Shown piece after piece: positions 858 through 20,229 of a stretch of DNA of 20,229 nt. The notes beneath the pieces were generated by a model. That model saw nothing but the letters and a program-made list of their open reading frames with translations. It had not been told where the DNA came from and did no database searches. Both the position numbers and the translations under genes were made by a program. The DNA lies in the IMG/VR virus record IMGVR_UViG_3300017782_000306, positions 1-20,229 of that record; one strand, written 5' to 3'. The DNA is from a virus. The stretch's first letter is position 1; each line of letters opens with the position of its first letter.

Positions 858-1562
858 ATGGTAAGAAAAAGAAAGAAAAAGAGTAAAAATTACTTTACTC
901 AAGAGACAGAGGACTATATTGTTAAATACAATAACCAACCAGATCCAGAAATAAGGAGTAAGATATATGAAACTCATATACATTATCCTTTTTTTAAACT
1001 TACACAAAATATAATTCATACATTTAAATTTTACCATACTGAAGTAGAAAACTTAGAGCATCTCCAACACGAAATAATTACCTTTTTATTGTCCAAAATG
1101 CATTTATTTGACCCAACAAGAGGTGCTAAAGCATATTCATATTTTGGTACCATAGTAAAACGTTGGTTAATCCTATATAATACTAAGAATTATAAAAAGA
1201 AAATTAAAAAGGTTGAAGTAGATATTCTAACAGGTGAAAATTCAACCCACACTTACAATATAGGAGATGATAAAGTAAAAAGTGATTTAGATAAATATGT
1301 TGATTTATTTGTTGAATACACAAGTGAAAATATATTAGAATTATTCCCAAAGAAAAATGATGCCCAAATAGCAGATGTTATTTTAGAATTATTTAGAAAA
1401 AGAGAAACAATCGAAGTATTTAACAAAAAGGCACTTTATATTTACATTAGAGAAATGGTAGATGTAAAAACTCCTAAAATTACCAAAATAGCTGATAAAC
1501 TTCATGAAATATTTAAATCACAATACATATTTTATTTAGAAAACGGTTACGCTAGATTCTAA
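858..1562 (+). CDS. 55: Late-transcription sigma factor, T4 gp55-like
   Basis: The 234-residue protein has a very basic N-terminus (MVRKRKKKSK) and at residues about 84-105 the segment FDPTRGAKAYSYFG followed by TIVKRWLI, which resembles sigma-70 region 2, the core-polymerase and -10 element binding part (a D-P-x-x-G-x-x-x-x-x-Y-F pattern). Residues about 171-223 are predicted helical (KKALYIYIREM, KITKIADKLHEIF) and could form a helix-turn-helix. In T4, gp55 replaces the host sigma on RNA polymerase and, with the sliding clamp and gp33, directs late transcription from TATAAATA elements. This protein is longer than T4 gp55 (185 residues), mainly at both ends. It sits just upstream of the structural genes it would be expected to switch on. 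No Shine-Dalgarno sequence precedes the start. I am fairly confident of a sigma-like role; the exact gp55 orthology is inferred from family pattern and context. Confidence 0.75.
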   Translation: MVRKRKKKSKNYFTQETEDYIVKYNNQPDPEIRSKIYETHIHYPFFKLTQNIIHTFKFYHTEVENLEHLQHEIITFLLSKMHLFDPTRGAKAYSYFGTIVKRWLILYNTKNYKKKIKKVEVDILTGENSTHTYNIGDDKVKSDLDKYVDLFVEYTSENILELFPKKNDAQIADVILELFRKRETIEVFNKKALYIYIREMVDVKTPKITKIADKLHEIFKSQYIFYLENGYARF

Positions 1563-1577
1563 CCCCTTCCTATATCC

Positions 1578-1587
1578 ATATTTATAA
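1578..1587 (+). promoter_or_regulatory. Candidate late promoter element ATATTTATAA
   Basis: The 37-base gap after the sigma gene contains ATATTTATAA ending 12 bases before the ATG at 1600. The same decamer occurs in the other two long gaps of the window (4793, 18393). It includes TATTTATA, which is the T4 late octamer TATAAATA read on the opposite strand, so its direction of action is uncertain. The position relative to the gene suggests a -10-like element for the + strand with a very short leader. No -35 element is evident. Confidence 0.45.
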
Positions 1588-1599
1588 TAAAATAACATT

Positions 1600-1959
1600 A
1601 TGGGATCATTAGACAATATTGTATTTAAGAAAAAAAAATTCTCGGATATATTAAGCGAAATTTACGATAACCAAAAGAAAAAAGAAACCCAAATCACAGG
1701 TTTAATTTCAGAATTAAAACCATTAATAAATGATATTGGTGATGCTACTTTAATCGTTCCACTTATTAAAGAATATATGGAAATTGGTGTTCGTAACGAT
1801 GAACAATTAATTAAAATGGCTACTATAGTACAGCGTGCGCTTAATAATAGTGGTGGTGAAGAATCAATGGGTATAACGGAAGAAGAAAAACAACAGTTAA
1901 TGGAGGAATTAGATAAATTAAACACTAACTTCGAAGGTAAAAAAGATGGCAATAAATAA
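1600..1959 (+). CDS. Small helical protein of unknown function
   Basis: This 119-residue protein lies between the sigma factor and the spike gene and overlaps the spike start by 14 bases. It is largely predicted helical and charged: a Lys-rich start (FKKKKFSDIL), a central amphipathic stretch (IVPLIKEYMEIGVRNDEQL), a Gly-rich linker near residues 84-87, and an acidic C-terminal helix (TEEEKQQLMEELDKL). No membrane segment or catalytic motif is visible. It could be a small baseplate or assembly factor, because it is translationally linked to the spike gene. A gp33-like coactivator is another possibility given the neighbouring sigma factor, but nothing in the sequence shows a gp33 signature. 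The candidate promoter before it makes it the likely first gene of a late transcript. Confidence 0.7.
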   Translation: MGSLDNIVFKKKKFSDILSEIYDNQKKKETQITGLISELKPLINDIGDATLIVPLIKEYMEIGVRNDEQLIKMATIVQRALNNSGGEESMGITEEEKQQLMEELDKLNTNFEGKKDGNK

Positions 1960-3289
1960 AGCAGGTTTCGGAAGTTTAAATCAAAACTTTAATTCTGTTG
2001 GGCTTAATAAAGAAGATATATTTAACCAATTAAATACATTAAAAGCTCAATTTATTACTGCTAGAGTAACTGATATAATTATAAGCAATACTCATCCTCT
2101 ATTTAATGAATATGGGGGGTGGAGTGGGTTAGGTACTATATTTTTTGAACCTTTAGATAATTTAGTTTCAAAAACAACAACAAAAACAAACCCAGTAGCT
2201 ACTCCTTTATTACCCTTTTTAAAAAATTATCCTTTAATAAATGAAATAGTAATATTATTCAACCTCCCCGGAAAAAACATCAGTAAAAGTACAAACTCAA
2301 CTAATATACTACAATATTACTATCTCAACCCAGTTGGGGTATGGAATCACCCCCACCATAATGCTTACCCTAATTTAATAGATCCTAAAAAAGACCCAAG
2401 CCAAGATATTAATTATGAACAAATTGAAAATGGTATAGTACGAAGAGTAACTGACTTTTCTACTAATATAAATTTAAATAGTCCTTTAACTGAAAGAGGA
2501 TCTTTTATAGAAAAAACAAACATCCACCCTTTATTACCTTTTGCTGGAGATAACATATATGAAGGAAGATGGGGTAATTCTTTGAGATTTGGAAGCACTG
2601 TACCTTCAACATCTATATCGGGTTCATCAAATTCTTTAGAATATCAAAATAATTGGTCATTTGTAGGTAAAAATGGAGACCCAATTACAATATTAAGAAA
2701 TGGCCAACCTAAGGATGCTTCTGATGCGGGTTGGTTGCCTTTAATAGAAGATATAAGTACAGATCTATCATCTATTTATATGACTTCTTACCAACAAATC
2801 CCTTTAAAGGCATCTAATGAAAACTACTCAGCATTATCTCCTGAACCTTTATTGCCTCGAGAATATTTTAACCCTCAAGTAATTTTAAATTCTGGGCGTT
2901 TAGTATTTAATGCTTCAACTGATAGTATAATTGCAAGTGCACAAGATTCTATATCATTATCCTCAAATAAACAAATAGGAATTACCTCTGAAAATGTAAA
3001 CATAGCAGCAGATAGCATTAAAATAGGAGGTCCAACAGCAAATGACCCTGCTTTATTAGGAGGTGCTTTTATTAATCAATTTAAAATTTTAGTTGAACAA
3101 ATTCAAGTTTTAGCATTTGCATGTTCAGGATTAGAAGGATATGATAGTGAATCCACAAACATTGAATCATCAGGTATAGATGCTGCGGGTCAATCATTGG
3201 ATGAAACTTGTAAAAATATTTTAGATTTATTACCTAATGATAATAAAATTACCTCACCTTTATTGTCTAATACCATAAGATTAAAATAA
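1946..3289 (+). CDS. Baseplate central spike / hub protein, gp5- or VgrG-like
   Basis: The 447-residue protein combines features of central spike proteins. After an N-terminal helical part (residues 1-35), FITARVTDIIIS at 36-47 opens a region resembling an OB-fold as in gp5, gpV and VgrG. EGRWGNSLRFGS at about 206-217 is a motif I associate with this phage spike family. Residues about 313-362 show short alternating beta strands (LVFNASTDSIIASAQ, ISLSSNKQIGITS, VNIAADSIKI), the pattern of an intertwined trimeric beta-prism. A helical C-terminus follows. In the virion this protein would cap the tail tube and pierce the outer membrane. No T4-lysozyme-like domain is seen, unlike T4 gp5. The start overlaps the preceding gene by 14 bases, and the stop shares a base with the next start (TAATG). 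The role is well supported by pattern and by nearby gp25 and gp6. Confidence 0.75.
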   Translation: MAINKAGFGSLNQNFNSVGLNKEDIFNQLNTLKAQFITARVTDIIISNTHPLFNEYGGWSGLGTIFFEPLDNLVSKTTTKTNPVATPLLPFLKNYPLINEIVILFNLPGKNISKSTNSTNILQYYYLNPVGVWNHPHHNAYPNLIDPKKDPSQDINYEQIENGIVRRVTDFSTNINLNSPLTERGSFIEKTNIHPLLPFAGDNIYEGRWGNSLRFGSTVPSTSISGSSNSLEYQNNWSFVGKNGDPITILRNGQPKDASDAGWLPLIEDISTDLSSIYMTSYQQIPLKASNENYSALSPEPLLPREYFNPQVILNSGRLVFNASTDSIIASAQDSISLSSNKQIGITSENVNIAADSIKIGGPTANDPALLGGAFINQFKILVEQIQVLAFACSGLEGYDSESTNIESSGIDAAGQSLDETCKNILDLLPNDNKITSPLLSNTIRLK

Positions 3290-5210: not shown

Positions 5211-5618
5211 ATGGCATTTGGAGCAACTAGAATATTCCCTGATGATTTACGTCCTAGCGTAGCTATTGGATTTAATCTTCCTATGAATGAAGGTGGGGTA
5301 TTTACTCCTAATTATCAAACTAAAGAAGCCATTAAAAATAATTTGATTAATTATTTCTTAACAAACCCAGGAGAAAGGCTTGGCAATCCAACATTTGGTG
5401 CGGGTTTAAGAGCATTTATTTTTTCACAGATAGATTCTCAAGATTTATCTTATATAAAAGATGATATCCAAGAAAAATTAATTACTTTTTTTCCTGAAGT
5501 TATAGTACAAGAGTTAATAGTTTTACCTACAGAAACATCTAATCAAATTCAAATTAATATAACATATAGTGTAAAAGATACTAGTATAAATGATGCACTA
5601 TCTCTAAGCTTTAACTAA
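5211..5618 (+). CDS. 25: Baseplate wedge protein, gp25/GPW family
   Basis: The 135-residue protein matches the gp25 family in length (T4 gp25 has 132 residues) and in its signature: NPGERLGNPTFGAGLRAFIF at residues 52-71, corresponding to the family's T-x-x-G-E-R-x-x-x-P-x-F-G-x-G-L core. After this comes the usual alternating pattern (DDIQEKLITFFPEVIV, then beta strands ELIVLP and IQINITYSV). gp25 sits in the inner baseplate wedge, binds gp6 and helps start sheath assembly; its fold resembles the handshake domain of sheath proteins. The stop overlaps the gp6 start (TAATG), the conserved gp25-gp6 gene pair of contractile phages. This is one of the safest assignments in the window. Confidence 0.93.
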   Translation: MAFGATRIFPDDLRPSVAIGFNLPMNEGGVFTPNYQTKEAIKNNLINYFLTNPGERLGNPTFGAGLRAFIFSQIDSQDLSYIKDDIQEKLITFFPEVIVQELIVLPTETSNQIQINITYSVKDTSINDALSLSFN

Positions 5619-7519
5619 TGGCTACAATAAGAAGAAATATAGAATATTTAAATAAAGATTTTAGTGATTATAGATCACAACTAATTAATTATTCTCAAAC
5701 GTATTTTCCTAATACTTACACAGACTTTTCTGAAACATCTCCTGGTATGATGTTTATAGAGCAAGCAGCATATATAGGTGATATATTATCTTTTTATCTA
5801 GATAACCAAATTCAAGAAAATTTCTTACAATATGCTAGACAAACTAGTAATTTATATGATTTATCATATATGTATGGATATAAACCTAAAGTAACAGGTT
5901 TATCCTCTGTTGAATTATCTTTCTATCAGTTAGTTCCTTCAATCGTAGAAATTGATGGAGAAGGAAATAATATATATGTTCCTGATTTTAATTATGCTTT
6001 AAATATAGGTGCAAATACAATATCTCAAACTCAAAATGGAGTTTCTTTTACCATAGAAGACCCAGTAGATTTTACTGTATCAAATTCTTTAGATCCAACC
6101 GAAATTAATGTAGCCCAAATATCAAATAATAACCCAACATATTATCTTCTAAAAAAGAAAAGAAAAGCACTATCAGGTACAATATCATCAACATCCTTTA
6201 CTTTTGGTAACCCCCAAGAGTTTCCTACGGTAATTATACAAGATAACAATATAGGAGGAATAATAGATTGTTTTGATTCTAATGGTGATGAATGGTATGA
6301 AGTAGATTATTTAGGTCAAGAATTAGTTTTTGATAGTATTAAAAATACTAATGTAAATGATCCTAATAATTATCAAGATAGTGATAACACACCATATTTA
6401 CTTCAAACTAAACAGGTTCAAAGGAGATTTAATTCAAGATTTTTAAGTACTGACAGTTTACAAATCCAATTTGGGTCAGGCAATCCACTAGATACAGATG
6501 AAGAAGTTATACCTAATCCAATGAATGTTGGTTTAGGACTGCCCTTTGAAAGAAATAAGCTAACAACAGCTTATTCTCCTACTAATTTTATATTTACAAA
6601 TACTTATGGTATTGCTCCAAGTAATACTACATTAACTTTAAGATATTTAAAAGGTGGAGGTGTAAATTCTAATGTAGCTGCAAATACAATTATAAACTTA
6701 AATACATCATTAGTAAATTTCCAATCCCAAACATTAAACTCAACTGTAGCACAAACTGTATTTGATTCATTACAAGTAAATAATGAAGCAGCAGCTAGTG
6801 GGGGTAATAATGGTGATTCTGCAGATGAGATAAGACAAAATACTATTTCAAACTTTTCTTCCCAATTACGAAATGTTACAGCAGATGATTATTTAGTAAG
6901 AGCTTTAAGTATGCCCCCTAAATATGGAATTATTTCAAAAGCAATAACCCAAAAACCAAAAGCAAATGATCCTAATACTACATTAGATTTATATGTATTA
7001 TCGACTAACTTGAATGGAAATTTAACATCACCTTCAACTTCACTAAAAAGTAACTTACGTAATTACATAAACCAATATAGAATGATTGGTGATACTATTA
7101 ATATTAAGGATGCCTTTGTAGTTAACATAGGTGTAAATTTTGAAATTGTTACTTTACCTGATTACAATAATAACCAAGTTTTAACTAATTGTGTTATAGC
7201 ACTTCAAAACTTTTTCAATATAAATAATTGGCAAATTAACCAACCGATAATTTTAAGAGATATTAGTATTTTATTAGATAATATAGCTGGGGTACAAACA
7301 GTAAATAATATAAATATTGTTAATAAGGCTGGAACAACATCTGGATATTCGCAATATGCTTATGATGTAGCTGGTGCGTTACAAAATGGTACTATATTTC
7401 CCTCAATTGATCCTATGATTTTTGAAGTAAAATACCCAACTAGTGATATAATAGGTAGAGTAGTTACCTTGGGACAAGGAGGAGGAAGCACAGCAAATGG
7501 TGGAGGTAGAAATTATTAA
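5618..7519 (+). CDS. 6: Baseplate wedge protein, gp6 / baseplate-J family
   Basis: The 633-residue protein is close to T4 gp6 in length (660). Its first 110 residues carry the family hallmarks: YLNKDFSDYRSQLINYS, YFPNTYTDFSETSPGMMFIE, AAYIGDILSFYLDNQIQENF, then LYDLSYMYGYKPK. A variable middle holds beta-rich sequence, and residues about 400-440 (AADEIRQNTISNF-like region, LRNVTADDYLVRALSMPPKY) match the baseplate-J core. The C-terminus has the usual ferredoxin-like repeats (DAFVVNIGVNFEIVTLP, ALQNFFNINNWQINQPI, LRDISILLDNIAGVQTVNNI). gp6 forms the dimeric ring that joins baseplate wedges. It is translationally coupled to gp25 upstream and ends in a Gly-rich tail (GQGGGSTANGGGRN). Confidence is very high. 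Confidence 0.93.
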   Translation: MATIRRNIEYLNKDFSDYRSQLINYSQTYFPNTYTDFSETSPGMMFIEQAAYIGDILSFYLDNQIQENFLQYARQTSNLYDLSYMYGYKPKVTGLSSVELSFYQLVPSIVEIDGEGNNIYVPDFNYALNIGANTISQTQNGVSFTIEDPVDFTVSNSLDPTEINVAQISNNNPTYYLLKKKRKALSGTISSTSFTFGNPQEFPTVIIQDNNIGGIIDCFDSNGDEWYEVDYLGQELVFDSIKNTNVNDPNNYQDSDNTPYLLQTKQVQRRFNSRFLSTDSLQIQFGSGNPLDTDEEVIPNPMNVGLGLPFERNKLTTAYSPTNFIFTNTYGIAPSNTTLTLRYLKGGGVNSNVAANTIINLNTSLVNFQSQTLNSTVAQTVFDSLQVNNEAAASGGNNGDSADEIRQNTISNFSSQLRNVTADDYLVRALSMPPKYGIISKAITQKPKANDPNTTLDLYVLSTNLNGNLTSPSTSLKSNLRNYINQYRMIGDTINIKDAFVVNIGVNFEIVTLPDYNNNQVLTNCVIALQNFFNINNWQINQPIILRDISILLDNIAGVQTVNNINIVNKAGTTSGYSQYAYDVAGALQNGTIFPSIDPMIFEVKYPTSDIIGRVVTLGQGGGSTANGGGRNY

Positions 7520-7529
7520 AAAATAAAAA

Positions 7530-8681
7530 ATGGCAGTATATAAAATTTTCCCACTTCAAGATGCAACCCTATATTCAGGATACCCTGAAATGAATGCAGG
7601 TATAGATGCAATTTTAGAAATATCTAGCACATATCCTTCTACATTTTCTACTCCTATTGTAGCACGACCATTAATCCAATTTGATCAATCTCAAATTAAC
7701 AATATTATTGATACTTTAAATACTAGTTCCACTGCCATTTCATCAAGTTTAAAAGCTTTTATAGCAGATGCTAGTGGAGTAGTAATGAAGTCAGACATAT
7801 ATGTTTATCCTTCTTCTGGATCATGGAATAATGGTAGTGGAGAATATTTAGACAACCCTTCTACTGTTAATGGGGCGGGTTGGAAATTTAGAGCAAATAG
7901 TGGATCAACCCCTTGGTTATTAGATAACTTTACAGAAAATGTAACAGGATCATATACCTCAGCATCCCCAGGAGGTGGTAATTGGTATACAGAATCTAAT
8001 GATACTAGACTTAATTTAGAATATTCTCAATCTTTCAACTTAAGAACTACTAAAGATATTAATGTAGATGTAACTGATATAGTTAAGACTTGGTATTCTA
8101 GTTCATATAATATACCTGGTACTTACACTGAAATAGAAAATAATGGATTTTTACTAAAATGGAGTGATGAAATAGAATTTGATTCTAATTTATCTATTCA
8201 ACCTAAAATGCAGTTTTATTCTGTTGACACAAATACTATATATCCTCCTCAATTAGAAATTAAATGGAGAGACTATAAATATGATAAAGGGGGATTATCA
8301 ACTATTAATACTCCTGATTTATATCTAGCTATTGATAATAACCAAGGTATATTTTATAGTGAAAGTATTAACCAATTTAGAATAAACTGTAGACCAGAGT
8401 TTCCAACTAGAACCTTTCAAACAGCTTCTGTTTACACAGATAATTTTGCATTACCCCCAGCATCATATTATGCTATAAAAGATTTAGATACAAATGAATT
8501 TGTAATTGATTTTGATTCAGAATTTACTCAAATTAGCTGTGATAATACAGGTAGTTATTTTACATTATATATGAATGGTTTAGAACCTGAAAGGTATTAT
8601 GAAATTTTAATCCAAACTACAGTTGATGGCAATACTATAGTAAAAGATGATCAATATTATTTTAAAGTTGTTAATGGATAA
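7530..8681 (+). CDS. DNRLRE-like beta-sandwich structural protein
   Basis: The 383-residue protein starts with LQDATLYSGYPEMNAGIDA and continues with ARPLIQFD (residues 9-52), later SDIYVYPSSGSWNN (88-101) and DINVDVTDIVKTWYS (176-190) plus NNGFLLKW (204-211). That order of a DAT-x-x-S-G start, a RP-L-I-x-F-D strand, a W-N pair, a DVT-x-x-V-x-x-W strand and an NGF-x-L strand fits the DNRLRE domain, a beta-sandwich found in secreted surface and adhesion proteins. The C-terminal about 130 residues form another beta-rich unit ending in YMNGLEPERYYEI and VVNG, possibly Fn3-like. Position directly after gp6, where T4 has gp7 and gp8, points to an outer wedge or peripheral baseplate protein. A-rich bases (AAAAAATAAAAA) precede the start. 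The domain call is by eye and moderate. Confidence 0.7.
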   Translation: MAVYKIFPLQDATLYSGYPEMNAGIDAILEISSTYPSTFSTPIVARPLIQFDQSQINNIIDTLNTSSTAISSSLKAFIADASGVVMKSDIYVYPSSGSWNNGSGEYLDNPSTVNGAGWKFRANSGSTPWLLDNFTENVTGSYTSASPGGGNWYTESNDTRLNLEYSQSFNLRTTKDINVDVTDIVKTWYSSSYNIPGTYTEIENNGFLLKWSDEIEFDSNLSIQPKMQFYSVDTNTIYPPQLEIKWRDYKYDKGGLSTINTPDLYLAIDNNQGIFYSESINQFRINCRPEFPTRTFQTASVYTDNFALPPASYYAIKDLDTNEFVIDFDSEFTQISCDNTGSYFTLYMNGLEPERYYEILIQTTVDGNTIVKDDQYYFKVVNG

Positions 8682-8683
8682 TT

Positions 8684-9154
8684 ATGTCTCAAACAAGAAA
8701 CGTTGATTTAAGAAAAGAGGTTTTTAATAAACCTCAATATGAACAAGTAATTGACACTAGTTTTTCTCAACTAGGGGTTGCTAGTATTAGTGCTAGTGCT
8801 GAAGATCAAATAAGCATTGAAGAATTCTTTGGATATTACAATTCTCTTTTTTATGATATACCACCCACTGGTGAAACTAATTCACATGAATTTTTAGTTA
8901 AAAATAGTGGGGAATATATTAATTTTGATCAAATAGCAGAAGAAATTTTAGCATTACAACAAGAAATAGCAGGATTGAGAGAAGAACTATTAGCAGAACA
9001 AATTAAAGTAGTAGAATTAGAATCGGGAGTAACTGTAAATACTGGTTCTTTAGGATTAGGAGAAAACACCGATACATCTATTATATCAACAAGTATATCA
9101 TCAGGTGGACAATCAGCGGAATCAGGAACAACTTCTAATAATAGTGTTTATTAA
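8684..9154 (+). CDS. Coiled-coil structural-cluster protein, unknown
   Basis: The 156-residue protein begins 2 bases after the preceding stop. Residues about 82-113 (FDQIAEEILALQQEIAGL, then REELLAEQIKVVELE) form a clear heptad-bearing coiled coil, which suggests trimer or dimer formation. The N-terminal 75 residues are mixed (DLRKEVFNKPQYEQVIDTSF, EEFFGYYNSLFYDIP), and the last about 40 residues are a Ser/Thr/Gly-rich flexible tail. It lies between the DNRLRE-like protein and the giant protein, so it may be an adaptor or bracket between wedge and fibre, comparable in placement but not in sequence to small T4 baseplate proteins. I recognise no named family. Confidence 0.65.
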   Translation: MSQTRNVDLRKEVFNKPQYEQVIDTSFSQLGVASISASAEDQISIEEFFGYYNSLFYDIPPTGETNSHEFLVKNSGEYINFDQIAEEILALQQEIAGLREELLAEQIKVVELESGVTVNTGSLGLGENTDTSIISTSISSGGQSAESGTTSNNSVY

Positions 9155-9163
9155 TTATAAAAA

Positions 9164-12100
9164 ATGGAAGAAAAAATAATAATAAATCAAGTTAATCCCG
9201 AAACATTTGAATTTCAGGACTATTCTATATCTGATGAATCTTTAATTGTTTCTAATGATTTAGATACTGTATTTTCAGGTTCTACAGATTATATTGAAGC
9301 TTATATATATGATGAAAATCAAAACCAAGTTTCATTTCAAGTCCCTTTTACTAATTATAAAGTTACCGAAGGAGATGTTGTTTTAATGCCCTCAAACGAC
9401 TTAGAAAGATTAGGATTTGATGTTGGTTTATATTATATAACTTATAATTTTTATAGACCACAATTAGCTTCAACTTTAAACACACAATATTATATTAGTG
9501 AAATTAGTTCTGATAGAACAGAAATAAGATTAGACAGCACACAAATTAATAATGCCCTATTAATTAGTTCTAGTTTAGAATTTATAGAATATAGAGAAAA
9601 TGCAGACTATTTTGTAGACTTTTTACTTAATTTTGGTAATAATCAATTAGTTATTGCTAATAATCTAGAATTAGACTTAAGTGATGAGTTAAATCCCACA
9701 ATATTAATTAAACTATATGAATCTCTTCCTTCAACTTTTGACTTAAAATCTCAATGTTCTGTAGTAGAGCAAATATCAACCCCACAGTCATATAATGTAA
9801 ATTTCCCTCCATTAGATTTTACCTCAGAGGATTTTACTTATATATCAGGACCTAATTATAGTTTAAATATTAAGGGGCAATCAGGTACTCCGGGAATGGA
9901 TTTTTCTTACAACACACTAGTATCTTCAAACTTAACTTCATCATTTAATCAAATAAATAATTTACTTAATCGTAAGGAAATAAATATAAATGTTAATTAT
10001 AAGGATTATAATGATTTTATTTATTTTTCATCTGCTTTTACTCGTTTACAAAACTTTTATTATAAAGTTGGACTAATACAATCAGCTAGTGCCCAATTAG
10101 GGCAAATTACTTCTTCAACTACGGGGTCAACTGTTTATAGTTCAAGCCAAGCTGAATTTAGTGCAACTATAGAAAATACTATTAAAAATTTTGATGGGTA
10201 TGAATATTTTTTATATTTTAACAGTGGTTCTGAATATTCTTATCCTAAATCAAATACTGAACCTCCATTTACTTTATACCCTACAGGAAGCACAGAAGTA
10301 CTAACTTGGTTAGGTTCAACTGATATTAATAATGCCTATTACGGAGGACAAGCACTTACCGCATCTAATTATGATGAAAATAATCAAAATGCATTATATT
10401 ATGCAATTCCAGAATATTTAAGAAGTGACTTACAAAATGCTAAATATGAATTATTTGTTGATATGGTTGGTCAACATTATGATAATTTATGGTTATATAC
10501 TAAAAATATAACAACTAAATTTGATGCTGATAATCGTTTAGATTATGGTATTTCTAAAGATATGGTTGCCGATGCTATTAGAGATTTTGGAGTAAAATTA
10601 TACTCTAATAATTTTAATACTGATGATTTATATGTTGCATTTTTAGGATTAACTCCATCGGGTAGTTCATTTCCTTTTCCTTATATGACAGGGTCAATTG
10701 GTGGTATAGTTAATACACCTTCTGGGTATGAGTATGTTGATTCAACGATATCGGCATCAAATGATATAATCCCGTTGGATGATGTTAATAAGCGATTATA
10801 TAAACGAATTTACCATAACATACCTTACTTACTTAAAACAAAAGGTACAGTAGCTGGTTTAAGAGCATTGATTACTTCATATGGTATTCCCGATACAATT
10901 TTAAGAATTAATGAATTTGGAGGTAAAGATAGAAATAATTCCCAAGATTGGGATTTAAAACAAGATATATATAATGTAGGATTAAATACTACTAGTTCAG
11001 GATTTACTTCATCTTTTTCCCTTAATTCAGATTGGGGTGCAGATGAAAATTCTCCTGGGTCAATTCAATTTAGATTTAAAACAAATGGTATTCCATTATT
11101 AGGATCAAATGTACCCTCAGTATCCCAATCAATTTTTGAAACTAATTTAAATACGGGTGATGGTGGTCAATTAAGTAGAATTGCTATGGCCCTTGAATAT
11201 GATGTATCATTACTAGCAGAGGGGAATTATTCTGGTTCTGTGCCTAGTAAATATAAAGAATATGGTACTTTAAAATTTTGGCCCAATATAAATACAACAC
11301 CACAAAACTCAGCATCATTATATCTTCCCTTTTGGAATGGAGATTGGTGGTCAATACAAGTAGATAGAGATGTTGCAGGAGATACTGGCAACTTTATTTT
11401 AAGAGCTGCTAATAATATTGGAGAAAACTTAGGTTTTACTGGCAGTGACACTATTGAGGGTAATACTACAATATGGGAAAATTCAACTGAAATATACTGG
11501 TTACCCCAAAATTATGTTCAATTTATTGGGGTTAATTATTTTCCTTTTACAGGTTCACTACAGGAAGTAAGGTATTATGCTGAAATGATAAGTGAAAGTG
11601 TGTTTTATGATTATGCAATGAATCCATATTCTTTTGAAGGAAATACGATTAATAGTGCACCAAATCAACTTGCATTTAGGTTACCCTTAGGGTCACTACT
11701 AGACACAGGATCATATTCTAACTCTATTCACCCAAAAGTTACTGGTTCTTGGGTTACAACATCCTCGTTTAATACTAATAGCTCTGCTTCGTTTACATCT
11801 ACCCCAACTTGGTTAAATAATATAGAAGATATTTACCTAGATCAAACCCCTTCGGGGATGAGAAATAGAGTAACAGATAAAATTCAAACTGAAGCACTAA
11901 TTTTACCCGAAGGTGATACTTTATCAGGTTATAAATCTATCCAACAAACATCATACGTTAGTGAAAGTTTTACCCCTAACGTTAATTATTTAGAAGTAGC
12001 ATTTTCTCCACAAGACCAAATTAATGATGATATTATTGGTCAAATGGGTTATTTTAACATTGGGGAATATATTGGGGATCCAAGACTTATATCTTCTTCA

Positions 12101-15100
12101 AATAAAAGTTATCCTGATTTAGATGTTTTAAGAGATGCATATTTTGAAAAGTATATAACTAATTATAACGTAACTGATTTTGTTAGATTAATAAAATTCT
12201 TTGATAATTCATTATTTAAAATGATAGAAGATTTTACCCCTGCAAGAACAAGCTTATCATCTGGTGTTGTAGTAAAACAACATCTATTAGAAAGAAACAG
12301 ACAAAGACCAGCTCAAGTATCTTCATCATTTGAACAATATTCGGGATCAGTTAGAAACTTACCTAAAGATTATAGTTTAGGACCAGGTGACTTCCCACAA
12401 TATTCCGATTCAGGTTCTGCAATATATAAATTTGGAGGTGGTACCGCAGGGTCGTTTGAACCCTTTAATGGGTTAGCTACTTCTGTATCAGGTACTTTAG
12501 GAGAAGGTCCTGATAATAAATATTTCTTAACTCAAAGTTGGGAAGAAGCTTGGGTTTCACTATCAGGCTCATCACCCATTGATAGAAGTGATCAAAGAGA
12601 ATTTTATAATGGTGAATTTAGTGGGTCAATAATTCCTATAGGTATAAAAGATATTTGTAGTGCTTATTTTAAAGTAGGAAATACTTCTTATAGATATGTT
12701 CCTGTTTTTTGGAGTGGGGATGGTAATAATTTTACCCAAACAATCTCAGCTCAACAATTTTTGGATCCTACTAACCAACCCCCACCGGGTTATGTTTGGT
12801 TTTGGAATGATGGTCAAAATGGTACCCCACCTAACTCTACAGGTAATGTACTTTATATAAAAATGTCTTTGCAAACTCATAATGGTTTAAATATATCTTC
12901 ATTTATCCAAGATATTGATTTTGTTACTTTTTCATTTAATTCTCCTGTAGACATAAATGGTAATATTTTAAGTCCAAATACCCCACAAACCTATTATGTA
13001 GAATCTATAGCACTCCAAAGTAGTACTCTAGCATCAGATACAAATAGTGTTGGTTCAGCTTTATGTTTTACAGTACCTGAAATTTCATCACAAATAGTTT
13101 CTTCAAATGATGCAAGTTTTTATGATTTTAATTTTTCAGCAAGTGGTGATTTCCAATGGTATGCCACACAGGATACATCAGTGGATCCCTCACCAGTATT
13201 AGATACAGGAATATCCGAATCAGTACCACAAGGTTATTTTCCTTTAACTTATCATACTGAATCCTTTTTTAGAGGGTGGGCAAGTTCTAATTTTTATACT
13301 AATGGAACTTATAACCAGTATGAAGGAATGCTAAGTGATCCTTTAGATAATTTTAATACCGGTTCACATGAAATAGATAACACAGATTCAACAATACAAT
13401 CTGGAATAGACCCAGCAAGTAATGTCCCATGGTTTATGAATGCCTCAAACCCACAAGGATCTGGGAAAAGTTGGTTGCAAATCCCTTCTGAATCATTCTT
13501 AGATTATGGTAATATCCCTGATTCAACCGTAGGACCAACATCAACTAATAATTATTTTAATATTGCATGGACAAGTGCTAGTTCGGAAGAACCACAGGCT
13601 GTACAAGGAACTAATTATTATTATAATGCTAGTAATAATGCTATTTATATATCTGGTTCTGAATTTCAAAACGAATTAAAAATAGCAAACCCATTATATT
13701 CTAGTAGTTTAATGTATAAAATTAGTGGGGGTAGTCAACTTTCAAGTACTGCAACATCATATACTCCTTATGGTCAAACTAATTTAAGTATACCTATTGA
13801 CCTCTCAAGAGGACAAGAATTGTGGGTTTATAGAGGAGAATCATCTGATCCTGTTGCAGATCCAAATGCCTGGAGGTATAATAGATATATTCATAGACCA
13901 TTCAAAGTATATTATCTAACAGAAACAGGATCAGGGCAGCCTGGTATTCCCTATGATTTGTATGATCCTATGATTCATGAGGACTTTTCTTCCACGGTGT
14001 ATCAAAGTTTATTTTTTCAAAACCCACCTTTATATTATAATAATAGTTCTCAAAATTTTGCTACAATGTTGGGAACACAAGGGGATCTGGATCTTGGAAT
14101 TATTGACCAAACAATATCATTTTTTAGACCTTTAAACCCTTCAGAAACACTCCCATCGACAGATGCAGTAACAGGAACTTTTAAAGTATTTAATGAATTA
14201 AGACAAGTAAGACCTTTTATATTTACAACTTATAATACATTAACAAATATAGGTACTACACCAGCTAGAGGCTCAGGTTCGGCAGTAGCTATTTCTCAAT
14301 CTGATGGTACTCCTTTTGCATTATTGAGAATGTATCAAAATCAAACCTCAACAAGACAACCAGTTAGTGAAATTGCCTACTTAGTTAGTAATCTCACTAA
14401 TATAATTAATTTAATTACGTATCAATCAGAAGGAGTTAATGGTGAAAACTCAATACTTTTGCCACCACTTGGTCAACAAGTTATCTGTGGTGCTGGAGGC
14501 ACAACTTCAGGTACTGTTATAATAAGTTCTACTGGAAATTATGCTATTACACAAAACCTAGGTAGTCTTGCCAATCCTTGTCGTGCAGATAATAATGAAG
14601 CAGATGATATTGTAATCCCACGAGGTAATTTTGTTAACGAAAGTCCCTTCTTCTATTCTACAGATAATATTCTTCCGGGAGTTACTGTAGGTAATGTTGA
14701 AGGTCAAACTTATCAAATAGAATATGGAGAATTTTTTGAAGGAAAAAATACTTCATCTTTAAGTTTAACAACAGGGACCCAACCAGGAGGAACAACGGAA
14801 GGTATAGATATAGTATTTCCTCAGGGTAGTTATATTTTTACTATGAGTGATTTTGATACTACTACTTTTACTAATGGTAGAACAGAATTTGGGTTATGGA
14901 CGACCTATGGTGATTATGCTAGGTATAACTTTGAAAACCAGGCAGGATCAAACACCAACCCAGTTACTATAAATTATAAAAATACAAATTATCAAAATAC
15001 TTCTATTGACATCTATAGGTTTGCAATACAAGATGCAGACGGATCACCATCAACAATATCAGGTGGTGGTGGAACAAATAGTTCAACATCTAGAAGTTAT

Positions 15101-18100
15101 CGTATTAACGTAACTTCTGATGGTGATTATTATCAAAGAATAAATATAGATGTAGCAGGTAATTATAAAGCAACGTTACAACGTCCACTTGGAACCATTG
15201 CTTCAGAAGTAAAAATATATTCAGTTCCAAATCAAACAGAAACTGGATTTACTAACATAACGGGTACTGAAATTTTTTCAACCATAGATAGCACAGCAAC
15301 TACTTTTGATTTAACTGGAGCTTTACAAGGATTAAATGCAGGAACACAATTATTATTCCAATTAGTACAACTTGTAAGTTGGTATGTTCCATTTAGAATT
15401 CATGAGTTATATAATGATTCTTTACCAAATACCAATAGTATAATAGCTAATGTAGGATCCCCAGAAGCACAAGGAACATTTACAGATCCTTATGTTGTTA
15501 CTGGATCTATTTCTACCAGATATGAAAATGGGGTAGAAGTTCCATCTGCTTTAGCAACTAAAGTAGTGGATGCTTATATTGTATATTCTTCTTCTTTATC
15601 ATCTAGTTTAGATGGTGCTTATGTATTTGATGTAGTTCCAACTTTTGGAACATTGTCTGTTACCGCATCTGTAGTTGTTAGTTCATTTACCGATGCTGAA
15701 GCTGCTTTATATGGTAATGCTATTTATGGAGAAGATCAATATGGAGGGGGAGCTTCGGGTGGTGGTACTACTTGGACAACAGCCTCTATAATATTATATA
15801 CAGGTTCAGCTAATAATTTCCCTAATGAGTTACCAGAGTTAGGGGGTAACATATTTGCCCAAACCAGTTCATATAGCCTAACTCACCATACTGGAGAAAG
15901 AATAACATTACATGCCGAATTTTCTCCGGGAGAATTAGAATATAATGATGTTTTAAAAATGTCATTACGTGTAGGAAGTGGTTCAAATGTTCCTTCAGTT
16001 GTAGAAAACTCATTAATAGTAACAGAGTATAGTATGAGTTTTACTTCATCAATTGATCCTAATATAGATCCATCAATACCAACGGTATTTAGTGATGATT
16101 TAAATTTTAATAAAGCATTAGATTGTCAACCTTTATTAAATAACTATAATGATTCAAGAACAAATGGAAATTTAATGGATGTAGATTACACTACTGGACT
16201 TGTAATCCCATCTAATTGGCAACAAATAATTAATTATACCGCAACTAAAGCAACAGTTCCTGAATCTAATTATACCATATTAGCTTCATCAAGACCTAGA
16301 TATTTTGGAGTAAGAGGATTCCAAGAAAACTTAAATGAGTGGACACCTGGAGATACTGGAACTTATGGTAAATTACCTATTATTGAAATTTCAAGGGGTT
16401 ATTTAGCCTATTTTAATAAATCTAATGACCCATATCCACTATTAAATAATTCTACTCAATATAATTTACAATATTTAATTGGTCAAGATGGTACAGCTAC
16501 ACAGCCTAAATTATCGGATATTTCTTTATATAATATTCAGGGTACGTTTGATTCTTATCCTTTAGTTAGTAAAGGAACAGTATCTCTTAATGCAGAAGAT
16601 TCTAACGCATTAAAATCCTTAGATGGTTTAGTAACATTTAGAAAAGTTACTCAAAAACCAGTACCTATAGTTTATACCCAAAAATCAGGAATATTTCCAA
16701 ACTATACCTATATAGCAGGTGATAATGGAACCAACAACCCAGGTCCTGTTGCATACACTGGTTCAGGGATTGATTTAATTGGTGATCAACCTGTAGATGC
16801 TTCTATTGTACCTAATTTTGCAAATTATAGCGTTTTAGCAGAAGATCAAGGTTCGGGTACACAAACAACGGATTTTGTTCTTACAACTTTTGAGTCATCC
16901 CAAAAAACACCAATTAATAATTTAGCCCCAAACATAACATCCTCATTCCCACCTGCATCACAACCAAATACCGATGTTTACAATACTAATACAGGTATTT
17001 TAACTATACCAAATGTTGATGATTATAATAATGCAGGCGGAAATGGAGCACCAACTTCCCAACCCTACAATTTAACAATGGAATTAGGTATTGACACTAC
17101 TCCTTTGGTATATGCAGTACAAACAAGTAATGCTGGTAAAGGTGGAGGATATAATACATCTACAGATTTAGGTAGTTTAAATATTAGATTTCAAAGAACA
17201 ACAAGTGGGGGTCCTACAAATAATTCATTTTCTACTTTTGCTCCTCAAAATTTAAAAGTAACTCTATTAAATTATATCCAACAACCCCAGGGAGGAATCC
17301 AAATAGTAACAAGAAACTTTTTAGCAGCTGCTAGTTCTTTGGTAAATAGTACATCACAAGGTGTTACAATTATATACAATGCTAATACAATTAAAGGGAT
17401 ATTACCTTCTAATTATTCAGCAGTTCAACAGGGTGGTCCTTTATTAAAACAAAGGTGGTTAGTATCAGGAACAGTTCCTGCTTCTTATATTAGACAAGGA
17501 AGAAGATTTAGAATTCAGGCCGCTGGAAATTTAATAAACCCTAATGCTTCCCAAAGAGATTTTCAATTAGACCCTAAATTTTTCCCAACCAGCCAAAATG
17601 GAGGATTTCAAGTTAAAACGGATTTACAAGGACAGGATAGTAACCCTGTTACAGCAGCACTACCTCCATATTGGACATTCAAAACTACCACAGGAGATAA
17701 TAGTGGAGATATTATTGCTAATAAATTAATAATGTCTTCTTCTCAAATGAATAAGGGTTATGGTAGAGGATTTATACAAAAAGATTTAATCTATACTGCA
17801 AGTTTTAATAAAAACTTTCCCGATGGTATTGAACCTGGATACACACAATTCCCAACGGTTCAAACCCCATGGTCTTTACAACCTTTTGATGAGATTAGAT
17901 TTAATAATGATGAAGGTCAAAATTATATAATTACAGAGGTAATAACACCTCAAAATCAAACAATAGCTAGTTACGTAGAGGAAGGTGTTGGTATGTTAGA
18001 AATAACTTTAGATAGAGATGTACCTGAAAGTTTTGCTGTTTTTAAAGAAACATCACCCGGTGGGGTTGGTATTGCTTTAGATGTATCTGCTACATCCTCT

Positions 18101-18391
18101 ACAGCAGTTGCAATTGACAATGCACTTGTTGAACCAGAATCTAAATCTACACCACAATTAGTTAAGGTAGGGTTCCCACAGCAAATATTTAGACCTTTAG
18201 ATTTCTTTGTAATAAGAAGATATGTAGATGATGCTAGTTCTATTATTACAGAACAGCAATACCCATATGAAAACCCACCTAATACAGGGTCATCATCAGG
18301 ATTTTTAATTCCAGAGTACCCTACAAACACATTAAAAGTAAACCCAGATGAAATATTATCTGATTTAATTGATAAGAAACTAATAGAATAA
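9164..18391 (+). CDS. Giant baseplate/tail-fibre structural protein with LamG-like domain
   Basis: A single uninterrupted frame encodes 3,075 residues, about three times T4 gp7 (1,032). An N-terminal beta-rich part leads to helices near residues 255-310. At 554-587 comes PYLLKTKGTVAGLRALITSY followed by GIPDTILRINEFGG, a motif I associate with large baseplate proteins of T4-like phages. Residues about 612-830 look like a concanavalin/LamG-type sandwich: SIQFRFKTNG, WNGDWWSIQVDRD, FTGSLQEVRYYAE. At 1018-1045, FKMIEDFTPARTSLSSG continues into VVVKQHLLERN. Residues about 1150-2300 are variable, Ser/Thr/Asn/Gly-rich and beta-prone. A conserved-looking C-terminal part starts near 2311 (DDLNFNKALDCQPLLNN), with SSRPRYFGVRGF near 2375 and ISRGYLAYFNKSNDPYP near 2409. 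No membrane segment, signal peptide or protease motif was seen. It is likely the outer wedge/host-contact protein; lectin-like binding is inferred. The start follows A-rich bases (TTATAAAAA). Confidence 0.82.
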   Translation: MEEKIIINQVNPETFEFQDYSISDESLIVSNDLDTVFSGSTDYIEAYIYDENQNQVSFQVPFTNYKVTEGDVVLMPSNDLERLGFDVGLYYITYNFYRPQLASTLNTQYYISEISSDRTEIRLDSTQINNALLISSSLEFIEYRENADYFVDFLLNFGNNQLVIANNLELDLSDELNPTILIKLYESLPSTFDLKSQCSVVEQISTPQSYNVNFPPLDFTSEDFTYISGPNYSLNIKGQSGTPGMDFSYNTLVSSNLTSSFNQINNLLNRKEININVNYKDYNDFIYFSSAFTRLQNFYYKVGLIQSASAQLGQITSSTTGSTVYSSSQAEFSATIENTIKNFDGYEYFLYFNSGSEYSYPKSNTEPPFTLYPTGSTEVLTWLGSTDINNAYYGGQALTASNYDENNQNALYYAIPEYLRSDLQNAKYELFVDMVGQHYDNLWLYTKNITTKFDADNRLDYGISKDMVADAIRDFGVKLYSNNFNTDDLYVAFLGLTPSGSSFPFPYMTGSIGGIVNTPSGYEYVDSTISASNDIIPLDDVNKRLYKRIYHNIPYLLKTKGTVAGLRALITSYGIPDTILRINEFGGKDRNNSQDWDLKQDIYNVGLNTTSSGFTSSFSLNSDWGADENSPGSIQFRFKTNGIPLLGSNVPSVSQSIFETNLNTGDGGQLSRIAMALEYDVSLLAEGNYSGSVPSKYKEYGTLKFWPNINTTPQNSASLYLPFWNGDWWSIQVDRDVAGDTGNFILRAANNIGENLGFTGSDTIEGNTTIWENSTEIYWLPQNYVQFIGVNYFPFTGSLQEVRYYAEMISESVFYDYAMNPYSFEGNTINSAPNQLAFRLPLGSLLDTGSYSNSIHPKVTGSWVTTSSFNTNSSASFTSTPTWLNNIEDIYLDQTPSGMRNRVTDKIQTEALILPEGDTLSGYKSIQQTSYVSESFTPNVNYLEVAFSPQDQINDDIIGQMGYFNIGEYIGDPRLISSSNKSYPDLDVLRDAYFEKYITNYNVTDFVRLIKFFDNSLFKMIEDFTPARTSLSSGVVVKQHLLERNRQRPAQVSSSFEQYSGSVRNLPKDYSLGPGDFPQYSDSGSAIYKFGGGTAGSFEPFNGLATSVSGTLGEGPDNKYFLTQSWEEAWVSLSGSSPIDRSDQREFYNGEFSGSIIPIGIKDICSAYFKVGNTSYRYVPVFWSGDGNNFTQTISAQQFLDPTNQPPPGYVWFWNDGQNGTPPNSTGNVLYIKMSLQTHNGLNISSFIQDIDFVTFSFNSPVDINGNILSPNTPQTYYVESIALQSSTLASDTNSVGSALCFTVPEISSQIVSSNDASFYDFNFSASGDFQWYATQDTSVDPSPVLDTGISESVPQGYFPLTYHTESFFRGWASSNFYTNGTYNQYEGMLSDPLDNFNTGSHEIDNTDSTIQSGIDPASNVPWFMNASNPQGSGKSWLQIPSESFLDYGNIPDSTVGPTSTNNYFNIAWTSASSEEPQAVQGTNYYYNASNNAIYISGSEFQNELKIANPLYSSSLMYKISGGSQLSSTATSYTPYGQTNLSIPIDLSRGQELWVYRGESSDPVADPNAWRYNRYIHRPFKVYYLTETGSGQPGIPYDLYDPMIHEDFSSTVYQSLFFQNPPLYYNNSSQNFATMLGTQGDLDLGIIDQTISFFRPLNPSETLPSTDAVTGTFKVFNELRQVRPFIFTTYNTLTNIGTTPARGSGSAVAISQSDGTPFALLRMYQNQTSTRQPVSEIAYLVSNLTNIINLITYQSEGVNGENSILLPPLGQQVICGAGGTTSGTVIISSTGNYAITQNLGSLANPCRADNNEADDIVIPRGNFVNESPFFYSTDNILPGVTVGNVEGQTYQIEYGEFFEGKNTSSLSLTTGTQPGGTTEGIDIVFPQGSYIFTMSDFDTTTFTNGRTEFGLWTTYGDYARYNFENQAGSNTNPVTINYKNTNYQNTSIDIYRFAIQDADGSPSTISGGGGTNSSTSRSYRINVTSDGDYYQRINIDVAGNYKATLQRPLGTIASEVKIYSVPNQTETGFTNITGTEIFSTIDSTATTFDLTGALQGLNAGTQLLFQLVQLVSWYVPFRIHELYNDSLPNTNSIIANVGSPEAQGTFTDPYVVTGSISTRYENGVEVPSALATKVVDAYIVYSSSLSSSLDGAYVFDVVPTFGTLSVTASVVVSSFTDAEAALYGNAIYGEDQYGGGASGGGTTWTTASIILYTGSANNFPNELPELGGNIFAQTSSYSLTHHTGERITLHAEFSPGELEYNDVLKMSLRVGSGSNVPSVVENSLIVTEYSMSFTSSIDPNIDPSIPTVFSDDLNFNKALDCQPLLNNYNDSRTNGNLMDVDYTTGLVIPSNWQQIINYTATKATVPESNYTILASSRPRYFGVRGFQENLNEWTPGDTGTYGKLPIIEISRGYLAYFNKSNDPYPLLNNSTQYNLQYLIGQDGTATQPKLSDISLYNIQGTFDSYPLVSKGTVSLNAEDSNALKSLDGLVTFRKVTQKPVPIVYTQKSGIFPNYTYIAGDNGTNNPGPVAYTGSGIDLIGDQPVDASIVPNFANYSVLAEDQGSGTQTTDFVLTTFESSQKTPINNLAPNITSSFPPASQPNTDVYNTNTGILTIPNVDDYNNAGGNGAPTSQPYNLTMELGIDTTPLVYAVQTSNAGKGGGYNTSTDLGSLNIRFQRTTSGGPTNNSFSTFAPQNLKVTLLNYIQQPQGGIQIVTRNFLAAASSLVNSTSQGVTIIYNANTIKGILPSNYSAVQQGGPLLKQRWLVSGTVPASYIRQGRRFRIQAAGNLINPNASQRDFQLDPKFFPTSQNGGFQVKTDLQGQDSNPVTAALPPYWTFKTTTGDNSGDIIANKLIMSSSQMNKGYGRGFIQKDLIYTASFNKNFPDGIEPGYTQFPTVQTPWSLQPFDEIRFNNDEGQNYIITEVITPQNQTIASYVEEGVGMLEITLDRDVPESFAVFKETSPGGVGIALDVSATSSTAVAIDNALVEPESKSTPQLVKVGFPQQIFRPLDFFVIRRYVDDASSIITEQQYPYENPPNTGSSSGFLIPEYPTNTLKVNPDEILSDLIDKKLIE

Positions 18392-18433: not shown

Positions 18434-19099
18434 ATGGGATATTTAAATAACGCAGTAGTAACAGTTGATGCTATTTTAACAACAAAAGGTAGAGAAGCAT
18501 TAGCATCAAACGATGGTTCGTTTCAAATTACTCAATTTGCACTATCTGATGATGAAATAGATTATACACTTTTTAATCCAACTCACCCTTCAGGTTCTGC
18601 ATATTATGGAGAGGCAATTGTAAATCAACCTTTATTAGAGGCATTTCCTTTAGAAAGCCAAATAATGAAATATAAACTAACAACTTTACCCAGAGGTACA
18701 GCAAAAATGCCAATTTTAAATCTTGGATATGCTGCTATTACTTTACAACAAGGAGCACAGTTAGCAATTACACCACAAACCCTAAATTATTTAGGTAATG
18801 ATCAAACTTTTGAAACAAGTGGTTACACAGCTACAATCGCTGATGTAAGAACTTTAGCTTCTTTTGAAGGGTTAGGAATTCAATCTGCTGCTACTACTAA
18901 TGCAAATGCAACAGCAACCCAAACAATTGGAACTAATGTATCATCAACCGTAACCGGAACACAAATAAATTTAAGAGCAACAACTATTAATACTTTATTT
19001 GGAACAAATTCTACTTTAGTAACAACATTAACTGTAATAGGTTTAGATAGTGGTGCACGAATTACAATACCTGTAACAATAACTAAATCAACCACATAA
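18434..19099 (+). CDS. Presumed virion structural protein, unknown family
   Basis: The 221-residue protein has an N-terminal domain that looks strongly conserved in style: GYLNNAVVTVDAILTTKGRE (residues 2-21), FQITQFALSDDEIDYTLFNP (30-49), then GSAYYGEAI and ESQIMKYKL. From memory, proteins with this start recur in structural clusters of marine T4-like and Bacteroidota phages, without an assigned function. The C-terminal about 75 residues are Thr/Ala/Asn-rich and beta-prone (NVSSTVTGTQINL, LVTTLTVIGLDSGARITIPV), resembling an Ig-like strand pattern. Two candidate promoter elements precede it, suggesting separate or boosted expression relative to the giant gene. It is followed after 12 A/T bases by the next structural gene. 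It is probably a peripheral tail or fibre component. Confidence 0.7.
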   Translation: MGYLNNAVVTVDAILTTKGREALASNDGSFQITQFALSDDEIDYTLFNPTHPSGSAYYGEAIVNQPLLEAFPLESQIMKYKLTTLPRGTAKMPILNLGYAAITLQQGAQLAITPQTLNYLGNDQTFETSGYTATIADVRTLASFEGLGIQSAATTNANATATQTIGTNVSSTVTGTQINLRATTINTLFGTNSTLVTTLTVIGLDSGARITIPVTITKSTT

Positions 19100-19111
19100 A
19101 AAAATAAATAA

Positions 19112-20161
19112 ATGAGCTTTAATAGACTAGACCCAGAAGATTTTGTAGTAAGTGCAGATGCAGTAGCAACAGCTGTATGGTCAGCAAACCAACCTACTTT
19201 ATCAACATTTTTTACTTCCTCTGCACAAGAAACAGGACAATCAGGTGAATTTTATTTAAATGTATTAAATACTGAAAGTGCTCAAGCTAATTCCGAAATA
19301 CAATTTGCTATTGCTTATGGAGATGCAACTGGTGGTGGCGCCGCTTCATATAACCCTAATGTAAATAATTATTCTCCTTCAACAACTACTTATGGTTCAT
19401 ATAGAACTCTAGTATTAGAAGATGAAAATTCTGAATTTGCATTTGGAGATGTTACAGGAAGTTATTTTTATGCCCTTAGTATTGAAAGAGCAAGATATAA
19501 AGAAACATTATTCCCAGGTTCTTTAAATTTACTAATATCTAGTAGTGTAGCAGGTTATAATACATTACAATTAACAGATAATTCTCAAGATGTTACTATA
19601 CCACAATATTTTGGTACAATGAGAGCTTACCAAGTTATTAGTGGATCTAATGGCACAGCTTACAATAAAACAACAGGAATTAATGATAACCGTACAGGGT
19701 ATACTCAAAATAGTGGGTCTTATGGTTTATTTCTCCCGGATATTGGAACTATTCTTTTAAATGGGGCTGCCTTAGATATTTCTGACACCCCAGAAGGTAT
19801 TAATTTAAGTACTAACAGAGATGATAATACTGATGCCAATAATGCCCAAAAATTATTTGTACATATGTCAGGTAGTGGAGGTGCCTCATTTAGTTTAGGT
19901 TGCCAAGAAACAATTACTTCTGATTATATATTTGTAAGATCAAGAAGTTCAGAATTTAATTATTCAGAAAACCCATCGTTTATATCGGGTTCAACAGGTG
20001 AAGTATTATATTCTTATTTTATAAATAACCCAACAGTATACCCAACAACAGTAGGTTTATACAATGATGCAAATGATTTATTAGCAGTAGCTAAATTATC
20101 AAAACCAATACAAAAAGATTTTACAAAAGAAGCTCTTATTAGAGTTAAATTAGACTTTTAG
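19112..20161 (+). CDS. Presumed virion structural protein, unknown family
   Basis: The 349-residue protein begins SFNRLDPEDFVVSADAVATA and contains YGSYRTLVLEDENSEFAFGD (residues 95-114), SYFYALSIERARYKETLFPG (117-136) and SLNLLIS, then a Gly/Ser/Asn/Thr-rich beta-prone remainder including HMSGSGGASFSLGCQE and a C-terminal basic strand (EALIRVKLDF). The residue use matches the giant protein and its neighbours. Its N-terminal pattern (F-x-x-x-D near the start, then VVS-x-x-x-V) reappears in the next gene, so the two may be paralogues. There is no membrane or catalytic motif. The start follows an A-rich run (AAAAAAATAAATAA). It is likely a tail or fibre protein by position; no named family is recognised. 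Confidence 0.7.
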   Translation: MSFNRLDPEDFVVSADAVATAVWSANQPTLSTFFTSSAQETGQSGEFYLNVLNTESAQANSEIQFAIAYGDATGGGAASYNPNVNNYSPSTTTYGSYRTLVLEDENSEFAFGDVTGSYFYALSIERARYKETLFPGSLNLLISSSVAGYNTLQLTDNSQDVTIPQYFGTMRAYQVISGSNGTAYNKTTGINDNRTGYTQNSGSYGLFLPDIGTILLNGAALDISDTPEGINLSTNRDDNTDANNAQKLFVHMSGSGGASFSLGCQETITSDYIFVRSRSSEFNYSENPSFISGSTGEVLYSYFINNPTVYPTTVGLYNDANDLLAVAKLSKPIQKDFTKEALIRVKLDF

Positions 20162-20166
20162 GATGA

Positions 20167-20229
20167 ATGGCTGCTTTCAAACAATTCAATTCACAGGATA
20201 TAATTGTATCGCCATTAGAAGTAAATAAA
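20167..20229 (+). CDS. Structural protein, N-terminal fragment cut by the window end
   Basis: An ATG 5 bases after the preceding stop opens a frame that stays open to the last base and encodes 21 residues, MAAFKQFNSQDIIVS followed by PLEVNK. Its start resembles that of the upstream protein (FNRLDPEDFVVSADAV against FKQFNSQDIIVSPLEV): a Phe near the N-terminus, a conserved Asp, two hydrophobics, then Val-Ser and a further Val. This suggests a tandem paralogue continuing beyond the window. An alternative ATG at 20163 in another frame ends after 21 codons and is not favoured. The gene is real with moderate confidence; the function is unknown. Confidence 0.6.
   Translation, partial: MAAFKQFNSQDIIVSPLEVNK

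Follow-up and report, generated by a model that had tools for sequence, protein, structure and literature searches.

Results

The window analysed here, a stretch of viral DNA of 20,229 nucleotides, carries an open reading frame (ORF) of 3,075 codons whose product is a fusion of two proteins, A and B, and has beta-rich modules clustered where the two join. The ORF is a member of a large and uncharacterised family of tail/baseplate proteins, found by a profile scan in at least 531 viral contigs, and A and B are encoded by two adjacent genes in about 24 relatives (A corresponding to residues 1 to ~1430–1446 and B to residues ~1475–3075 of the window protein). The build is unusual and works alongside separate tail fibres.

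The open reading frame and its genomic context

The frame had been described from the letters alone as unbroken for 9.2 kb, and it is indeed real and intact: it runs from ATG to stop on the same strand as all neighbouring genes, its GC3 is low and even (0.11–0.17) and similar to that of the neighbours, and the chance of an open run this long at 31% G+C is about 10^-113. Two-gene relatives do exist, and one might suspect that sequencing or assembly had joined two genes in the window. However, fused full-length homologues of 2,957–3,083 aa are present in several independent contigs, at 46–65% identity or more, and one of the related proteins (L001) is 99% identical across the seam. Therefore, the ORF is not an assembly join, an explanation that we consider negligible. 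Scans of the ORF against Pfam, NCBIfam and PHROG returned nothing.

The nearest annotated phage is Flavobacterium phage immuto, followed by Microcystis phage Mel-JY01 and a 484-kb uncultured phage (LR756508), and the gene order of the window is matched by all three. Genes for gp25-like and gp6/Baseplate_J-like proteins lie upstream of the ORF, which places it in the baseplate module of a contractile-tail phage. Two small genes (7530–9154; 383 and 156 aa) are located between the gp6-like gene and the ORF. The 383-aa one (7530–8681), directly after gp6, is kept in immuto and Mel-JY01 and shows a weak match to a DNRLRE domain (E 1.7e-4, below cut-off). Several paralogues of the 349-aa gene near the other end of the window (19112–20161) lie downstream in Mel-JY01, where some form the C-terminal domains of 593–955-aa proteins; this is suggestive of a domain for attachment or trimerisation that tail appendages have in common.

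The features are listed below, W denoting the residue numbering of the 3,075-aa protein. Locus counts are by domain profiles, those of C1 and C3 including the effect of several loci cut off by contig ends.

5211–5618 (+): gp25-like baseplate wedge subunit, context (phrog_261, E 1.8e-17)
5618–7519 (+): gp6/Baseplate_J-like wedge subunit, context (TIGR02243, E 7e-20, below cut-off; PHROG baseplate wedge subunit)
9164–18391 (+): whole fused A+B protein, ATG to stop, 3,075 aa; full-length fused relatives
9164–10939 (+): N1 (W1–592), conserved A core with the KRIYHNIPYLLKTKGT..GLR block at W546–587; 99 loci, immuto, Mel-JY01 and LR756508
10940–11899 (+): LG (W593–912), predicted lectin/LamG-like beta-sandwich between N1 and N2 (pLDDT 80–90 in large parts; Foldseek); 97–99 loci, size varying in relatives
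11900–12343 (+): N2 (W913–1060), conserved FVRLIKFFDNSLFKMIEDFTPARTSLSSGVVVKQHLLERN block; 99 loci, immuto and Mel-JY01
12344–12808 (+): N3 (W1061–1215), end of the common part of A; 97 loci
12845–13444 (+): M1 (W1228–1427), accessory beta domain, C-terminal in A of split relatives; 46 loci
13502–13585 (+): fusion seam (W about 1447–1474), between the end of A homology and the start of split B
13802–14275 (+): M2 (W1547–1704), accessory domain, N-terminal in B of split relatives; 39 loci
14294–15493 (+): M3+M4 (W1711–2110), hypervariable beta-rich stretch, 18–59% identity in the window clade; 13 and 10 loci only
15530–16048 (+): C0 (W2123–2295), accessory domain; 38 loci
16076–16687 (+): C1 (W2305–2508), conserved B core; 80 loci, its first half matching immuto gene 162 (iE 2e-20)
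16766–17686 (+): C2 (W2535–2841), variable accessory region; 11 loci
17720–18388 (+): C3 (W2853–3075), conserved C-terminus of B; 72 loci
18434–20161 (+): pair of conserved tail genes downstream, coding for 221 and 349 aa and also present after A/B in immuto, Mel-JY01 and LR756508

Conserved cores

N1, LG, N2, N3, C1 and C3 form the core of the family, and M1, M2, M3, M4, C0 and C2 are accessory. An initial scan of viral contigs retrieved 42 relatives, in all of which residues 1–1170 are conserved. The motif blocks picked out by the sequence-only reading are real: identity within the window clade reaches 97% at residues 526–600 and 93% at residues 976–1050, both blocks are almost invariant across 71 relatives, and the 2305–2508 block was recovered in 80 of the loci examined. 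An apparent internal repeat, in which the C1 block seemed to resemble W852–968, was dropped; the C1 profile had drifted onto W852–968 and was rebuilt without it. The anatomy as a whole can be considered well supported: two proteins of the baseplate module are fused in one intact ORF, which bears modules where they meet as well as a lectin-like insert.

Three related contigs (L115, L116 and L117) were binned with bacterial metagenome-assembled genomes (MAGs), one with Winogradskyella (L115) and one with Flavobacteriaceae. L115 itself has the look of a phage tail module, and for this reason the binning serves as a host hint only; it points to marine Flavobacteriaceae as hosts but does not prove it.

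Fused and split, long and short forms

When the window ORF was mapped on the ORFs of relatives, four forms were distinguished: a long fused form of about 2.55–3.27 thousand residues; a long split form, in which A of 1,726–2,281 aa is followed by B of about 1,307–1,773 aa; a short fused form of 1,733–2,097 aa; and a short split form, with A of 1,181–1,277 aa and B of 798–1,001 aa. In split relatives homology to A ends at W1427–1446, and residues 3–7 of the B genes align at W1475–1485, which sets the seam at about W1447–1474. Immuto genes 161 and 162 belong to the same family, as judged from matches to N1 (iE 4e-92), N2 (iE 2e-22) and C1 and from the shared neighbours; the presence of the first half of C1 in gene 162 makes the latter a free-standing B. 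One locus (L032:10001–19197) was at one point taken for a short split form and was rejected as such, being a long form with the frame broken near W626–675 and W2500–2780. The collagen ORF on the same contig (L107) is also in pieces, and the breaks in both are probably sequencing or assembly errors.

In the tree of the family the fused window clade is sister to the long split clade. The fused or split state changes at least four times and the length class twice, and split forms branch early in several subclades.

If domains had been inserted between aligned flanks, as the sequence-only reading proposed, the middle of the protein (residues 1150–2300) was expected to be absent or swapped in relatives, and this is what we observed. 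Twenty-two shorter relatives keep W1–1220 and parts of W2300–3075 and are missing about W1290–2260. In the cleanest case, L106, W1–1175 corresponds to residues 1–1109 and W2311–2508 to residues 1107–1301 of its protein, with nothing between W1175 and W2311. The middle does come and go, then, but the idea that it entered a single scaffold fared less well: in immuto, about 24 long relatives and several short ones each flank has a gene of its own, and we are therefore dealing with a fusion of two proteins rather than an insertion into one gene. It could still be argued that one ancestral gp7-like gene took up host-recognition domains in its middle and that the split forms arose by later gene fission, as the middle is missing from short fused relatives and fusion in L050 is at the same seam as in the window clade; moreover, fusion and fission come at about equal cost by within-family parsimony (four changes). 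We regard this history as rather unlikely, since the outgroup immuto keeps A and B as separate genes, split forms are early branches in several subclades, accessory domains occur at the end of A and at the start of B alike in split forms, and similarity to T4 gp7 was not found. A literature search on gene fusion found nothing.

A second insertion site within A

W593–912 is a second insertion site, inside A, that the sequence-only reading had missed, and, as judged from the alignments, the segment is an insertion relative to immuto, which matches W7–592 and W913–1053 with only 24 residues between them. The gap between N1 and N2 is about 175 residues in Mel-JY01 and about 390 in LR756508. AlphaFold predicted a beta-sandwich over most of W593–890, with 10-residue mean pLDDT values mostly of 70–92. 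The best PDB matches of the A model in Foldseek were neurexin LNS2, eqolisins and legume lectins, with 6pnq matched at E 1.5e-4, and the viral matches include proteins labelled LamG or ConA; as Foldseek gives no aligned residues, the lectin match was placed on LG by strand pattern and length. No match to a LamG or lectin model of Pfam was obtained in any of 24 family members. LG has a predicted lectin/LamG-like fold, with putative sugar binding.

The variable stretches

The middle of the protein had been thought to consist of about 1,000 variable, beta-prone residues. Its beta-rich nature is borne out by the model of W1224–2423, which is nearly all beta, albeit weak (mean pLDDT 57). As to variability, the picture was only partly right: within the window clade identity falls to 19–38% at W1726–1875 and to 18–23% at W1951–2100, but W1201–1725 is fairly conserved (50–82%), and W2476–2850, which lies outside the region originally named, is also variable (32–49%). 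Inside the hypervariable stretch a 15-base repeat is present in two copies, in frame, at 14971–15000 of the window. Foldseek matches of the middle model were scattered and weak, all to beta proteins, with glycosidase and carbohydrate-binding beta domains among them, and were set aside as uninformative on function. That the variable parts contact the host is possible, though we would not call it probable.

Separate fibres and the proposed place of A in the baseplate

The window ends at 20229, just past the second gene after the ORF and before the position at which relatives carry their fibre genes. In relatives of the window clade two further genes are followed by a giant ORF:

L109:4837–17049: ORF of 4,070 aa, collagen-like
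L110:4357–13866: ORF of 3,169 aa, collagen-like
L111:4299–14396: ORF of 3,365 aa; the two ORFs scanned were those of L109 and L110

A Pfam scan of the L109 and L110 ORFs revealed at least 24 collagen stretches, and the former ends in an S74 chaperone domain; all three look like very long phage collagen fibres. Of 18 records, 12 contain collagen-rich ORFs, among them each of the six tested from the window clade, and nine contain S74 domains. A literature search on collagen fibres of Bacteroidetes phages found nothing. The proposal that the large protein replaces separate fibre genes is contradicted by these data, as in close relatives a collagen-like fibre gene follows downstream. The predicted lectin-like LG domain and the hypervariable beta-rich stretches would suit a protein that is itself the main receptor-binding apparatus; with such ORFs a few kilobases downstream in the window clade, we consider a role of this kind in place of tail fibres very improbable.

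Whether A is the counterpart of T4 gp7, the wedge scaffold suggested by the sequence-only reading, was approached through gene order and similarity. A lies downstream of gp25-like and gp6-like genes, as would a gp7/gpI wedge protein, and this arrangement is conserved in immuto, Mel-JY01 and LR756508. The sole match to TIGR02242 in the immuto genome falls in the KGT..GLR block of gene 161 (E 0.006); at 13.5 bits, the best score obtained, it does not reach the curated cut-off of 51.85 bits, and the window family gave no match. By eye the order of motifs in the KGT block resembles that of a TIGR02242 member, which we treat as a lead only. Using hhalign, no similarity was detected to any of T4 gp6–gp12 (probability below 1%), and comparison with two TIGR02242 members was no better than chance. 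Profile searches of the PDB with the protein gave nothing relevant, a PF09684 search gave nothing, and a solved gp7-like protein was absent from the best 50 Foldseek rows; the helical blocks are modelled at low confidence, with pLDDT of about 30–60 in most. The gp7 proposal retains gene order and one weak match in immuto, and finds no match in T4 gp6–gp12, in the PDB profile searches or among the best 50 Foldseek rows. A gp7-like wedge role for A is plausible and slightly favoured by us, while its membership of the gp7 family is putative.

The main competing view holds that A is a peripheral tail component, such as a fibre-attachment platform, and assigns gp7 to either of the two genes at 7530–9154. 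It fits the position of the 383-aa gene, rather than A, directly after gp6, and the failure to find a gp7 match for A; however, what the 383-aa gene weakly matches is a DNRLRE domain, not gp7, and the one TIGR02242 match of immuto falls in A. We judge this view the less probable of the two, though it deserves consideration.

Discussion

On balance, we favour the reading that the product of the ORF is part of the wedge or periphery of the baseplate and arose by fusion of the adjacent tail genes A and B, separate in many relatives. In this protein A would use its conserved helical blocks to dock on the gp6/gp25-like wedge, where gp7 sits in T4, and might display the predicted lectin-like domain. 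The beta-rich modules of the joint could form an exposed arm, the fast-changing parts of which may contact the host envelope or the base of the fibre, while the conserved end of B would tether the next baseplate parts and long-range contact would be made by the separate collagen-like fibre.

Domains turn over at two sites, W593–912 and around the A/B joint. Tentatively, the A/B gene boundary of this widespread family might be viewed as a standing site of domain acquisition, at which modules accumulate on either side and repeated fusing and splitting yields wedge proteins, 1.7 to 3.3 thousand residues long, with interchangeable host-contact domains beside a separate collagen fibre. The analysis gives a large family without Pfam, NCBIfam or PHROG match a defined anatomy, with cores conserved in A and in B, insertion sites at two places and a fusion seam of mapped position. 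The long and short, fused and split forms constitute a natural series in which the gain of host-contact domains by phage baseplates can be studied, along with the question whether covalent joining or separation of wedge parts leaves function intact.

Comparison with known systems

Immuto (vB_FspM_immuto, MW353176, Immutovirus) shares with the window the gene order, the A segments on both sides of LG (gene 161) and half of C1 (gene 162). It differs in having two genes, of 1265 aa (161) and 403 aa (162), no LG, no joint modules resembling those of the window protein, and separate annotated tail fibre and spike genes; genes 161 and 162 are annotated as a hypothetical protein and a putative nucleic acid binding protein, respectively. 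The A model also matches in fold proteins of uncultured Caudovirales and marine viruses in BFVD (A0A218ML37, A0A6J5PNZ3, A0A1B1IUQ9 and others; E down to 5e-57), which are unannotated and mostly of about 1,060–1,440 aa.

T4 gp7, like the window protein, is large and encoded after gp6 in a contractile-tail module. Unlike it, gp7 is the product of one gene directly after gp6 and has 1,032 aa, and the window protein is without detectable similarity to gp6–gp12. Sizes vary widely among such proteins, XM1 gp17 having 242 aa against the 1,032 of T4 gp7 (PMC10457771). In Alg12 of AlgoCIS, and in Afp12/Pvc12, the gp7-like part is fused to a gp6-like part and not to a B protein, and no PDB sequence match to the window protein was found. 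Carbohydrate-binding modules occur in Alg11, the neighbour of Alg12 in AlgoCIS. The likeness lies in the kind of protein: the gp7-like part of Alg12 is an exposed, variable part of the wedge that binds tail fibres, and has been described as an evolutionary hotspot and a hotspot for re-engineering (PMC8894135).
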